Part shown: piece after piece, positions 6,050-42,554 of the stretch
How the letters are laid out: each line of letters starts with the position of its first letter
How positions within the stretch are numbered: position 1 is the stretch's first letter
Source of the DNA: an uncultured Oscillospiraceae bacterium
Lineage (GTDB): Bacteria > Bacillota > Clostridia > Oscillospirales > Oscillospiraceae
DNA: 50,263 bases
Assembly: GCA_947628805.1 (NCBI GenBank)
Contig: CANRBG010000010.1
Location: 1-50,263, forward strand
Direction: 5' to 3'
The notes under the pieces: generated by a model
What the model saw: only the letters and a program-made list of their open reading frames with translations
What the model was told of the DNA's origin: nothing
Database searches by the model: none
Position numbers and translations under genes: made by a program

Positions 6050-7321
6050 ATGTTCAGGAACAAAAAATTCGGTTTTTACGCCGTCACGCTCTGCCTGACG
6101 GGGCTGGCGTACACCCTGGTGTGCGCGGCTTTGGAGACGGGTCTGACGGGCGTGGTCCAGCGCTTTGTAAAGAGCTGGTCCGGCCAGACCACAGAGCTTC
6201 CCACCTTGGTGGGGAGCTTTCTTGCGGTCCCGGCGGCCTTCCTATGCGGGCGGGCCGTCGTGAAAAGCGGGCCCCGGCAGGCCCTGCTCGTCTGCGCGGC
6301 TGTCGCGGCCCTGGGCTGCGCGGGACTGGCCGCCGCCGGCGGGATCTATCCGCTGTTTTTCGTGTCCGCGGCGGCGATCCGCTGCGCCTGCGCGCTGATC
6401 TACATCTGCCTGGCCGTCCTGTGCGCCGGCTGGTCCATCCGCTACCGGGGCCGGATCATGGGCATCGTCACCCTGGGCGCGCCGCTGATGGGCGCGGTGG
6501 GCGCGGGCACCGTGACCCGGCTTATCTCCGGATACCTCTCCGGCGACTACAGGCCCTATTTTCTGGGTCTGGCCGGGGCGCTGATGCTGCTGGCGCTGCT
6601 GGACCGGTTTTTGCTGCGGGACCTGCCGGAGGAAGCCGGGCTTTATCCCGACGGGGCCGGCCGGCCCCCCTTGTCCGAGCCCGAGGATGAACAGCCGCCC
6701 CTGACCCCGAAGCAGATATGCAAAGACGGCCGCGCCTGGCTCCTGTTTGTGATCTGCGGCGCGCTGGCGGCCGTGGCGGCCGGATGCATGGGCGGCATGG
6801 GCGCCCGGTTCCTGGCCCTGGGCGGCGAAGAGCTGTGGCTGTCCGCCAGCCGCTGGCTGGCCCTGGGAGCCATTTTGAGCATCCCCGCCAGCTACATCTT
6901 CGGCGTGATCGACGACTGCGCCGGGTCCGCTGTGGCCGTTATCCTGCTGGCCGCCATGGAGCTTCTGTGCGCGCTGGCGCTGCTCATGACCCCGGCGGCG
7001 GGGAGCCCGCTGTGGGGCGTCGCCCTGTGCGCGGGCGGGGCCTGTCTGCTGGGCGGGCCGTCCACCGTGATCCCCTGCGCCATCGGCCGGGTCTATGGCC
7101 GGCGGCAATTCGCCGCCGCGGGGGCGATCCTGCTGCCCGCGGTGCTGCTGCCCGCTGCCGCCGCGCCCGTCGTCACGGTACAGCTGATCCAGGCGGGCCT
7201 TGGCCGGACCGCCTGCATGGCGCTGGTGGGTCTGGCCGCCATCGGCCTGGCGGCGGCGCTGCTGCTGATCCCCATCAGGGACGCCAACGCCCCCGACCGT
7301 GGCCGGGACAATAAAACTTGA
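6050..7321 (+). CDS. Major facilitator superfamily transporter
   Basis: A 423-aa protein with about twelve hydrophobic helices and a central hydrophilic loop (PLSEPEDEQPPLTPKQICKD, near 205-225) that separates two six-helix halves. The layout resembles the OFA (oxalate/formate antiporter-like) branch of MFS carriers, which is a family-level guess; the substrate cannot be read from the sequence. GGAGG lies ten bases before ATG 6050. The gene follows the CxxC protein by 22 bases and is the last of the rightward series. A palindromic repeat copy begins directly after its stop. Confidence 0.8.
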   Translation: MFRNKKFGFYAVTLCLTGLAYTLVCAALETGLTGVVQRFVKSWSGQTTELPTLVGSFLAVPAAFLCGRAVVKSGPRQALLVCAAVAALGCAGLAAAGGIYPLFFVSAAAIRCACALIYICLAVLCAGWSIRYRGRIMGIVTLGAPLMGAVGAGTVTRLISGYLSGDYRPYFLGLAGALMLLALLDRFLLRDLPEEAGLYPDGAGRPPLSEPEDEQPPLTPKQICKDGRAWLLFVICGALAAVAAGCMGGMGARFLALGGEELWLSASRWLALGAILSIPASYIFGVIDDCAGSAVAVILLAAMELLCALALLMTPAAGSPLWGVALCAGGACLLGGPSTVIPCAIGRVYGRRQFAAAGAILLPAVLLPAAAAPVVTVQLIQAGLGRTACMALVGLAAIGLAAALLLIPIRDANAPDRGRDNKT

Positions 7322-7326
7322 AAATT

Positions 7327-7456
7327 GGCTGTTCTGTTTTGGTGTCGGAGCCAGTCCGAAAGTATCCCTCGCCCGCACAGTTTCGCTTCGCTCAACACCA
7401 TGCGGTTCGAGGGACACTTCCGGTCCTGGCTCTCAAACTTTTAGTGCCTAGGTGCG
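7327..7456 (+). repeat. Palindromic dispersed repeat, copy 1
   Basis: A long imperfect hairpin: GCCAGTCCGAAAGT...CCCTCG on the left pairs with TTCGAGGGACACTTCCGG...CTGGC on the right, around the loop CAGTTTCGCTTCGCTCAACA. It shares more than 80 nearly identical bases with copies at 22518 and 42431. It lies between the converging MFS and sfsA genes. Confidence 0.85.
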
Positions 7457-7473
7457 CCGGTCTAAATGAATAA

Positions 7474-7507: not shown

Positions 7508-8290
7508 TTACAGCCGTACCGCCACCGGCGCGTTCAGCTCCATGCTGTCCGGGGCCACCCGGCAGTCATAGGCCAGGATATGCACCCCTGCGGCGACGGC
7601 CGCTTTCAGGGCCGCGGCAAAGGCCGGGTCCGTGGCGGCATTGGGCTCGAAATGGTCCACGCCCTCCATCTGGATCACGAAAAGCACATACGCCGGCCCC
7701 GGAAAGGCCGCCAGCTCCCGCAAATGCTTGGTCCCCCGCTCCGTTGGCGCGTCCGGGAACAGGACCACGCCGTCCCCAACGGGGCCCCCACGCGAATCCA
7801 GCGAAGCGAATCGCGTGGGGAGAGGAGAAACCGCGGAGCACTCGAACTCCGGCGCAAGCGCCGGAGAGAGACCTGCGGAGCGTGTTTCGACGAGTGTGAC
7901 GCCTTTCACCTCCAGCAGCGCCAGCTCCGGGGTAAAAAGCCCAAAGTCGAACCGGCTGTCGCCGTAACGAAACTCCGGCTTTATCTCCGTCCCCGGCGGG
8001 AACAGCTCTCCCCTTTTCAGCCATTCCAGCACCGCCGCGTTGGGGGCCTGGCTGTCCATGTTGATCAGCCTTGCCCCTTTCTCTACGGCGATCAGATCAT
8101 ACCGGGTCCTGCGGCCCGTATCCTCCCCCGCGTCGGCCAGATACACCCGGGCCCTCGGGACCAGCAGCTCCCGGCAGCGGCCCGTGTTCTTCACGTGTAC
8201 CGTCTCCACGCGTCCGTCCAGCTCCACATGGGCGATAAACCGGTTGGGCCGGTCCAGGAATCGGGCCGGGACCACTCGCTCGTACCGCAT
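7508..8290 (-). CDS. sfsA: SfsA-like sugar fermentation stimulation / DNA-binding nuclease-fold protein carrying an in-frame repeat insertion
   Basis: A 260-aa protein. N-terminal SfsA features are present ([30 protein letters not shown]) and so is the core (PEFRYGDSRFDFGL, LLEVKGVTL, DGVVLFPDAPTERGTKHLREL, HILAYDC). The family is about 225-235 aa. The excess is a block of about 39 residues between EVKGVTL and DGVVLFP, where SfsA normally has two or three residues. That block is encoded by the palindromic module at 7775-7888. SfsA is a nuclease-fold protein linked to nucleic-acid binding. The start ATG overlaps the stop of the upstream ABC ATPase (TGATG), so it is translationally coupled as the last gene of the peptide-transport operon. 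Whether the protein still folds is unknown. Confidence 0.9.
   Translation of the reverse strand: MRYERVVPARFLDRPNRFIAHVELDGRVETVHVKNTGRCRELLVPRARVYLADAGEDTGRRTRYDLIAVEKGARLINMDSQAPNAAVLEWLKRGELFPPGTEIKPEFRYGDSRFDFGLFTPELALLEVKGVTLVETRSAGLSPALAPEFECSAVSPLPTRFASLDSRGGPVGDGVVLFPDAPTERGTKHLRELAAFPGPAYVLFVIQMEGVDHFEPNAATDPAFAAALKAAVAAGVHILAYDCRVAPDSMELNAPVAVRL
7775..7888. repeat. Two-hairpin palindromic module inserted in-frame in sfsA
   Basis: Hairpin 1: CCCCACGCGA (7786-7795) with TCGCGTGGGG (7811-7820). A 26-nt linker AGAGGAGAAACCGCG... follows. Hairpin 2: CTCCGGCGC (7847-7855) with GCGCCGGAG (7858-7866), then GAGACCTG. The same arrangement, with different stem sequences but 19 of 26 linker bases shared, is found at 22598-22690. 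In the sfsA frame it is open throughout. Confidence 0.85.
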
Positions 8291-22498: not shown

Positions 22499-22517
22499 GT
22501 AACGGCGGGGCGCTTAG

Positions 22518-22758
22518 GCACCAAAGGTTTGAGAGCCAGGACCGGAAGTGTCCCTCGACCCGCATGGTGTTGAGCGCAGCGAAACTGTGCGGGCGATTGG
22601 GGTCCCCAAAAGGCACGCCTGCCTTTTGGGGAGAGGAGGAGCCGCGAGCCATTCGAGCTTTGCCGCTTGCGGCAAAGGGAGACCTGGCTTGCGGGCGACG
22701 ACGACGGCCGAGCTCCGACACCGAGATAGAACGCTCCTGGCCTTCAAGCCTTTGGTGC
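22518..22758. mobile_element. 241-bp MITE-like palindromic element with terminal inverted repeats
   Basis: Left TIR 22518-22541 and right TIR 22735-22758 are inverted copies matching at 21 of 24 positions (GCACCAAAGG... / ...CCTTTGGTGC). The left half is the dispersed repeat (copy 2, reverse orientation relative to copies 1 and 3). The middle holds a two-hairpin module: CCCCAAAAGGCA/TGCCTTTTGGGG (22604-22631) and CTTTGCCGC/GCGGCAAAG (22658-22677). It encodes no protein and lies between converging genes, overlapping the end of the FAD/Rieske gene. Confidence 0.82.
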
Positions 22759-25369: not shown

Positions 25370-25397
25370 ATGTAGCGACAACTGAAAAGGCAGCGAT

Positions 25398-25550
25398 GTC
25401 TTCAGGGCAGGGTGAGATCCCCGACCGGCGGTACAGTCCGCGAACGCGCAGCGCGGCAGGCGACCGGCCTTTTGGCCGGCGCGAACACGCAAAGCGCGCC
25501 GACCCGGTGCAACTCCGGGACCGACAGTTACAGTCTGGATGGAAGAAGAT
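25398..25550 (+). ncRNA. FMN riboswitch (RFN element)
   Basis: The conserved FMN aptamer is read directly: TCTTCAGGGCAGGGTGAGAT, CCCGACCGGCGGT, a variable extended P3-type arm (GCGCGGC...GCGCGCCGACC), CCGGTGCAACTCCGGGACCG, ACAGTTACAGTCTGGATG, and the closing GAAGA. It senses FMN and turns off the downstream riboflavin importer. A hairpin at 25610-25647 (TTGACACCT/AGGTGTCAA) before the ribU start is the likely expression platform. It is not followed by a good U tract, so termination versus translation control is unclear. Confidence 0.97.
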
Positions 25551-25609
25551 GTGTTGAGCGGCGCAGTTGGCGCGGCGGACTTCGGCCCCCGCCATGACGC
25601 GGCCCCATA

Positions 25610-41936: not shown

Positions 41937-42428
41937 ATGGAGTTTTGCGCCTGGTATCCCTCCCCGGCGGGCCGGATGCTGCTGGCCTCGGACGGGGCGG
42001 CCTTGACGGGGCTTTGGTTCGACGGGCAGAAATATTTCCCCAAAAAGCCCATGGAGCCCCGGGAGGACCTGGCCCTGTTCGGCACGGTCCGGGCCTGGCT
42101 GGACGGCTACTTCGCCGGGGACGAGCCAGACCCCCGGGTCCTGCCCCTGGCCCCCGCCGGCAGCGGTTTTCGCCGGCTGGTATGGGACCTGCTCTTGGAT
42201 ATTCCCTACGGGGAGGTGACCACCTATGGGGCCCTGGCGGACAAGGCTGCCCGGCGGATGGGCCGCTATACCATGTCCGCCCAGGCGGTGGGCGGCGCGG
42301 TGGGCCACAACCCTATCTCCGTCATCATCCCCTGCCACCGGGTGGTGGGCTCGGACGGCTCTCTCACCGGCTACGCGGCGGGTCTGGGCGTCAAAAGCTG
42401 GCTTTTGCAGCACGAGGCCGCGTTGTAG
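41937..42428 (+). CDS. ogt: Methylated-DNA--protein-cysteine methyltransferase
   Basis: A 163-aa protein with the invariant active site IPCHRVVGSDGSLTGYAAGLGVK near residues 122-144, where the cysteine accepts the alkyl group from O6-alkylguanine. PYGEVTTYGALA and AVGGAVGHNPI are the DNA-binding helix signatures. ATG 41937 is used; a GTG at 41904 would need a ribosome site that is missing. Its promoter and ribosome site lie inside the terminator of the preceding operon. A palindromic repeat copy follows its stop. Confidence 0.95.
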   Translation: MEFCAWYPSPAGRMLLASDGAALTGLWFDGQKYFPKKPMEPREDLALFGTVRAWLDGYFAGDEPDPRVLPLAPAGSGFRRLVWDLLLDIPYGEVTTYGALADKAARRMGRYTMSAQAVGGAVGHNPISVIIPCHRVVGSDGSLTGYAAGLGVKSWLLQHEAAL

Positions 42429-42430
42429 AT

Positions 42431-42554
42431 CGGCTGTTCTATCTGGGTATCGGGACCAGCCCGAAAGTATCCCTCGCCCGCACAGTTTCGCTTCGCTCAA
42501 CACCATGCGGGTCGAGGGACACTTCCGGTTCTGGTCTTCGGACTTTTACTGCGC
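42431..42554 (+). repeat. Palindromic dispersed repeat, copy 3
   Basis: Nearly identical to copy 1: GGCTGTTCT...CCGAAAGTATCCCTCGCCCGCA, loop CAGTTTCGCTTCGCTCAACA, then TGCGGGTCGAGGGACACTTC. The two halves form a long imperfect hairpin. It lies between converging ogt and the deaminase gene. Confidence 0.85.

Follow-up and report, generated by a model that had tools for sequence, protein, structure and literature searches.

The sfsA gene of an uncultured Oscillospiraceae bacterium contains, in frame and without a stop codon, a real copy of a structured repeat family that is dispersed through the genomes of its genus. The family is very probably a non-autonomous, hairpin-type mobile repeat of Clostridia of about 100-120 nt that inserted in frame into sfsA. 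In the window, meaning here the whole stretch of 50,263 nucleotides that was analysed, sfsA occupies positions 7508-8290 of the minus strand and comprises 260 codons (260 amino acids including the insert) with no internal stop. The encoded protein consists of an OB domain and a PD-(D/E)XK-type (restriction-endonuclease-like) nuclease domain, and matches Pfam SfsA_N and SfsA as well as NCBIfam TIGR00230, the equivalog 'DNA/RNA nuclease SfsA'. Protein and codon alignments of 26 SfsA genes of the genus place the net insert at 7781-7891 (minus strand), i.e., 37 codons or 111 nt encoding residues 134-170, VETRSAGLSPALAPEFECSAVSPLPTRFASLDSRGGP, immediately C-terminal of EVKGVTL and before DGVVLFP. 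The spacing from VTL to DG is 39 residues in the window protein versus two in congeners with an empty site (VTL-E-R/Q-DG). The first-pass annotation of this DNA, which had postulated an in-frame insertion at a position normally holding two or three residues, was correct in both respects, the number being two in this genus.

On the DNA level, the structured element extends from 7780 to 7893 on the plus strand, antisense to sfsA, and scores 106 bits with the covariance model R1, in whose training set this copy is included; the module had initially been placed a few bases away, at 7775-7888. It is composed of hairpin 1 (7786-7820, CCCCACGCGA ... TCGCGTGGGG), a conserved purine-rich linker (7821-7835, AGAGGAGAAACCGCG), hairpin 2 within an enclosing stem (7847-7866, CTCCGGCGC AA GCGCCGGAG), and a conserved end (7885-7893, TTTCGACGA) that reads TCGTC on the opposite strand, all given for the plus strand. 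A second copy (22598-22704, plus strand, 120 bits with the covariance model, likewise a training copy) lies between a pyruvate kinase-like gene and a DAO/Rieske gene. It is the same intergenic module that had been recognised at 22598-22690, its end now set at 22704 by the covariance model. When up to 3 mismatches are allowed, the 19-nt linker pattern has two occurrences in the window, compared to 0.15 expected, and 1 of 100 shuffles reached that count. The segment 7765-7905 folds better on the plus strand than 200 of 200 shuffles (z -3.89), and more weakly on the minus (coding) strand (z -2.75, equalled by 3 of 200 shuffles). An assembly artefact is unlikely because the same insert is found at the same sfsA site in four further genomes of the genus. 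Based on the linker shuffles, these other sfsA copies and the covariation described below, a chance palindrome or an assembly error was rejected.

Copies of the repeat were gathered via the linker, with a GGGNCCCC-like start and an ACGA end required. This yielded 98 distinct copies without and 18 with a Ruminococcus-type flag, and the 98 were reduced to 75 by dereplication and to 69 in the alignment after exclusion of three Ruminococcus-like rows and of three copies whose ends or inner segments were doubtful (L014, L080 and L172). In the 69-copy alignment RNAalifold gives 29 pairs, of which 24 show compensatory changes, and pairing holds in 97.4 percent of 1992 cells. The covariation score is 0.521, versus 0.218 when shuffled and at most 0.127 when slid. 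Covariation thus shows the fold of the repeat to be hairpin 1, the purine-rich linker, and hairpin 2 within the enclosing stem. GT wobbles outnumber AC mismatches by 117 to 18 over all pairs of alignment A1, by 79 to 17 in A1 minus the hairpin-1 base pair and one further pair, and by 81 to 15 in alignment A2, which indicates that the folded strand is that of the linker, i.e., the antisense strand of sfsA. By eye, TCGTC stands at one end of most copies, in a set for whose extraction the ACGA end was a requirement. The Ruminococcus-type copies L082, L091, L132 and L143 differ in their inner part (GAGGTCAAGGCATACC...), with hairpin 1, linker and ACGA end retained. At Rfam gathering scores nothing matches the element, and the sole match in the whole window is an FMN riboswitch (25394-25554, plus strand, 101.8 bits). 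Near the 22.6 kb copy, a search at E ≤5 returned just weak mir-4659 matches outside the element. A known Rfam RNA family as the identity of the repeat was therefore rejected, as no curated model matches the element.

The earlier proposal that the insert belongs to a dispersed palindromic module is borne out by the covariance model, which detects at least 695 copies in 29 of the 35 genus genomes (0-71 per genome) and at least 12 in the window's own genome, these counts being lower bounds as only part of the candidates was scored. In a class-wide sample of 391 Clostridia genomes from 223 genera, the model matches 53 genomes and 38 genera (E ≤1e-4, the E-values of this model being rough), and the order of the parts is unchanged in distant copies. 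A restriction of the repeat to a single genus, suggested by the exact linker (present in 21 of 60 genomes, and in a single genus among 26), was overturned by this search. Among the matches listed, which contain some unrelated chance matches, the named hosts of extracted copies comprise rabbit-gut Oscillospiraceae MAGs, an Oscillibacter sp. MAG, Candidatus Galloscillospira and Ruminococcus MAGs, among others. Phage records, plasmid records (queried with one copy) and viral contigs (searched with the exact 19-nt pattern) yielded no copy. A literature search, conducted mostly outside subscription papers, gave no account of such an element in Clostridia. Many structured RNAs have been predicted in human microbiomes (PMC8040213), and the repeat motif may figure among those described there.

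Copies are present in some and absent from other closely related species, and some lie within other dispersed repeats. One intergenic site (G011:C13) is filled in genome G011 and empty in G034, with a clean junction, and in G009, with an extra gap of about 15 nt alongside; the empty G034 sequence already has GACGA at the position of the element's end. The 22.6 kb copy in the window is nested in a repeat termed H2, one arm of which (22506-22596) is broken by the element and forms the inverted repeat I1 with 7369-7459 (92 percent identity). Uninterrupted H2 copies are found at 7318-7447, between an MFS gene and sfsA, and at 42423-42552 (86 percent identical to the former). H3, a third dispersed repeat of the genus of about 145 nt, also occurs in empty and element-filled copies (L339, L341, L342 and L343). 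In H2 at the 22.6 kb copy and in H3, the element substitutes about 9-10 nt of the host repeat. With a clean junction at one site versus replacement at H2 and H3, no single insertion chemistry is shown. Clean insertion at a fixed TCGTC target fits the G011/G034 site and not H2 or H3, and is not claimed here.

The repeat would presumably be mobilised in trans by an enzyme recognising its fold. REP/RAYT elements derived from IS200/IS605 carry hairpins near their ends, are without terminal inverted repeats and bear a short tag at one end. The Clostridia repeat resembles them in all three features, terminal inverted repeats likewise not being seen, but differs in that no association with Y1 transposases was seen. 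Of the 53 class genomes with a model match, 31 have Y1 transposases (PF01797), versus 233 of 391 overall (the overlap was counted by hand). Within the genus they occur in 12 of 35 genomes, the window's own being without. Fourteen Y1 loci of the genus were inspected, each 2.2-3.4 kb long and two of them adjacent, and one contains a copy of the element. A Y1 transposase as the mover was rejected given this lack of association in class and genus, and no mover is therefore assigned.

In the contexts examined, copies of the family lie between genes, sfsA being the one gene in which coding copies were confirmed. A codon-frame scan based on codon usage covered 138 of 144 distinct contexts (6 at edges were left out) and classified 87 as coding on neither side, 39 on one side, 4 on both sides in different frames and 8 as having one frame running through. 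Five of these 8 are sfsA, and none of the other three (L211, L225 and L179) was confirmed. L225 lies in a 114-nt gap between genes matching the HIGH_NTase1 and RF-1 families; this copy fills the gap and adjoins the start of one gene and the stop of the other. L211 is situated between class II tRNA synthetase and Mg-chelatase-like genes, and neither the frame spanning it nor the frames through L179 have a Pfam match. The scan caught five of the seven known sfsA copies and assigned both copies of genome G032 to the 39 contexts coding on one side, and other coding copies may thus hide in that class. All 15 of 15 insert-peptide hits outside sfsA looked on inspection like chance open frames over intergenic copies. 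Given the high GC content of the element, any one of whose six frames is free of stops in 70-104 of 134 copies, an open frame alone carries little weight. Invasion of many genes by the repeat is unsupported.

Within the genus, sfsA is found in filled, empty and decayed states. The 26 genes compared were obtained from 35 genomes, including that of the window, with the fragmentary G004 gene left out. At the position following EVKGVTL (site B), a full insert is present in five genomes (G000, which is that of the window, G011, G013, G033 and G032) and an in-frame remnant in two species (G010 and G007). A second position 14 codons upstream (site A) is occupied in G021 and in G032, the latter being the species with both sites filled, which brings full inserts to six species and two sites. 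Orientation and frame are identical in the copies at both sites. Six of the 35 genomes match an sfsA-type 28-nt pattern (up to 3 mismatches), each at a single place that coincides with the sfsA coordinates; the pattern does not pick up the G032 site-A copy. In 18 of the 26 genes, neither site is occupied and two residues stand at site B. The G008 protein (L066), counted among these 18, has a short unlike insertion, VPPTSP, near site A that may be an old remnant. Closely related species differ in state, with G011 filled and G034 empty at 93.7 percent identity outside the insert, and G000 filled and G002 empty at 88.8 percent. The comparison with close relatives suggested in the first-pass annotation has thus revealed relatives with an empty site, and the module is present elsewhere in the window's genome, so that neither of the two outcomes named there as refuting was obtained. 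In a search for SfsA with this insert outside the genus, 207 of 391 class genomes (the window's own counted) gave a match, and among the matches listed none but the window's own reaches into residues 140-172.

Because of the alternation of filled and empty species, and because the sfsA copies resemble a single subfamily, we lean slightly towards sfsA having been filled more than once rather than once anciently, although the likeness of the copies may stem from constraint on the fold. It is quite possible, if on the whole somewhat improbable, that a single insertion in the sfsA of the genus ancestor was inherited vertically under pressure on the fold, and was repeatedly and precisely lost via recombination with empty alleles. 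The resemblance of the sfsA copies to one subfamily speaks for this course as well, the decayed G010 and G007 remnants show that loss occurs, and the G032 site-A copy is diverged (82-88 percent identical to the other sfsA inserts) like an old copy. In addition, the copies in front of the tmRNA of G000 and G021 are 92 percent identical (9 of 113 positions differ) and hence similarly conserved, so that low divergence of the sfsA copies alone proves nothing. A single origin is harder to reconcile with the sfsA tree, in which the five states require at least 7 changes, of which branches with good support impose a minimum of 4 for the empty state and of 3 for the full site-B state. It is also harder to reconcile with the empty alleles, which carry the usual E-R/Q codons and no scars. 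Counting against our preferred reading, 12 of the 23 inner branches of the tree are weak, and the clustering of states does not exceed that of shuffles, 43 of 200 of which need as few changes. The seven sfsA inserts are 82-100 percent identical, and without the G032 site-A copy 91-100 percent, with third positions at 89-100 percent, whereas the sfsA genes are 75-92 percent identical with third positions at 55-83 percent. Variable sites are spread evenly over the codon positions of the insert (9, 9 and 8) compared to 69, 55 and 161 in the genes. No clear co-conversion of flanks was observed among filled sfsA alleles, the flanks not clearly tracking the insert. Repeated filling could also take a more specialised form, which we regard as rather doubtful: a subfamily dedicated to sfsA would re-enter at the same codon or at site A, species after species. 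Such behaviour would be homing-like, always in a translatable orientation and frame and without neighbouring DNA, but in an element that measures only about 110 nt and lacks a protein of its own.

Alternatively, the repeat could be a functional RNA (a leader, attenuator or antisense RNA) kept for regulation, the sfsA copy regulating sfsA from the antisense strand. The strong strand-specific covariation is consistent with this, as is the position of the copies L006, L038 and L146, whose last base directly precedes the predicted 5' end of tmRNA, so that they would form a tmRNA leader. Copy numbers of 0-71 per genome, presence and absence between sister species, and nesting within other repeats make a regulatory role an unlikely account of the family. 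Still further from the observations would be a true RPE-like system, i.e., one resembling the Rickettsia palindromic elements (RPE), that spreads into many protein genes in a preferred frame. While the shared orientation and frame at the two sfsA sites would agree with such a system, sfsA is the only gene confirmed in the 138 scanned contexts (a scan that missed two of seven sfsA copies and left 39 contexts coding on one side) and no NCBIfam or Pfam model matches the insert peptides, which renders it highly improbable.

SfsA has been described with a catalytic motif ID-EVK of the PD-(D/E)XK type (PMC1189080). Site A lies between the two halves of this motif and site B directly past EVK. In an AlphaFold2 model based on an alignment of 26 close sequences (mean pLDDT 77.9, mostly confident outside the loop), residues 135-176, between strands 122-133 and 177-179, have a pLDDT below 50 and are predicted to be disordered, and site A falls at the turn between strands 112-120 and 122-133. 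Solved structures of relatives are 4da2 and 4dap. A filled sfsA would accordingly encode, as modelled, an SfsA with a disordered loop of 37 residues. With no stop, a length that is a multiple of three and a position in a turn after the catalytic EVK strand, the insert would probably allow SfsA production to continue. Filled genes look alive and still under purifying selection, as derived synonymous/non-synonymous codon changes on filled branches (G000 15/8, G011 14/6, G013 19/5, G033 13/5, G032 31/15 and G021 23/19) resemble those on empty ones (G002 20/12, G034 11/1, G030 17/9, G017 25/19 and G020 26/17). Selection is less evident on the branches of the two species with remnants (G010 24/24 and G007 33/24). 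The insert itself is altered in amino acid at 14 of its 19 variable codons, and the even distribution of its changes over codon positions indicates no visible pressure on the insert peptide.

Rickettsia palindromic elements were reportedly described by Ogata et al. in 2000 and 2002. The insert peptides had no match at E ≤5 in Pfam or in NCBIfam, which includes RPE models, a comparison made at the protein level. According to a review (PMC10969869), RPE are short palindromic repeats located in frame within functional genes, whose products gain an extra peptide; R. conorii has 44 insertions, and nearly half of RPEs are within genes. The Clostridia repeat is likewise a dispersed palindrome that occurs in frame inside a functional gene. 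It differs in belonging to another phylum, in its conserved linker and two-hairpin architecture, and in being confirmed in sfsA only (138 contexts scanned, five of seven sfsA copies caught), whereas the review places RPEs in many unrelated genes. The parallel drawn in the first-pass annotation is therefore partly supported, applying to the behaviour in one gene and not to membership. CGTC-tagged REPs, as characterised by Di Nocera et al. 2013 (PMC3733652), are also palindromic, dispersed and mostly intergenic, with some located within genes in several species, and RPE-4 and RPE-6 are counted among them; RAYTs are treated there too. REPs carry an unpaired CGTC motif at one end, where most copies of the Clostridia repeat, extracted with the ACGA end required, show TCGTC by eye. 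The Clostridia repeat shares the general properties, but its roughly 100-120 nt form two hairpins and an enclosing stem, whereas REPs are given as 20-40 bp with a single stem of 8-9 bp. In the main text of that paper, 'clostridi' and 'firmicutes' occur 0 times. Membership of the Clostridia repeat in RPE or CGTC-tagged REPs is not shown. Coding palindromic inserts are known chiefly from Rickettsia, with reports for REPs from several other bacteria, and one is hereby found in gut Clostridia. As filled, empty and decayed alleles of the same gene can be compared, the question of how a mobile repeat becomes part of a protein can be put directly. With strong covariation, no Rfam match and a presence in 38 of 223 sampled Clostridia genera, the family deserves a name and an identified mover.

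Insertion into tRNA genes was also considered, and the joined flanks of 240 extracted copies (duplicates included and no positive control) yielded no tRNA. In a distant genome (L279), the element is oppositely oriented and directly adjoins the tmRNA 3' end, and a similar junction without a tmRNA call is seen at L282 and L284. At L137, the element stands beside a partial duplicate of the 3' end of tRNA-Thr that resembles an attachment-site remnant.
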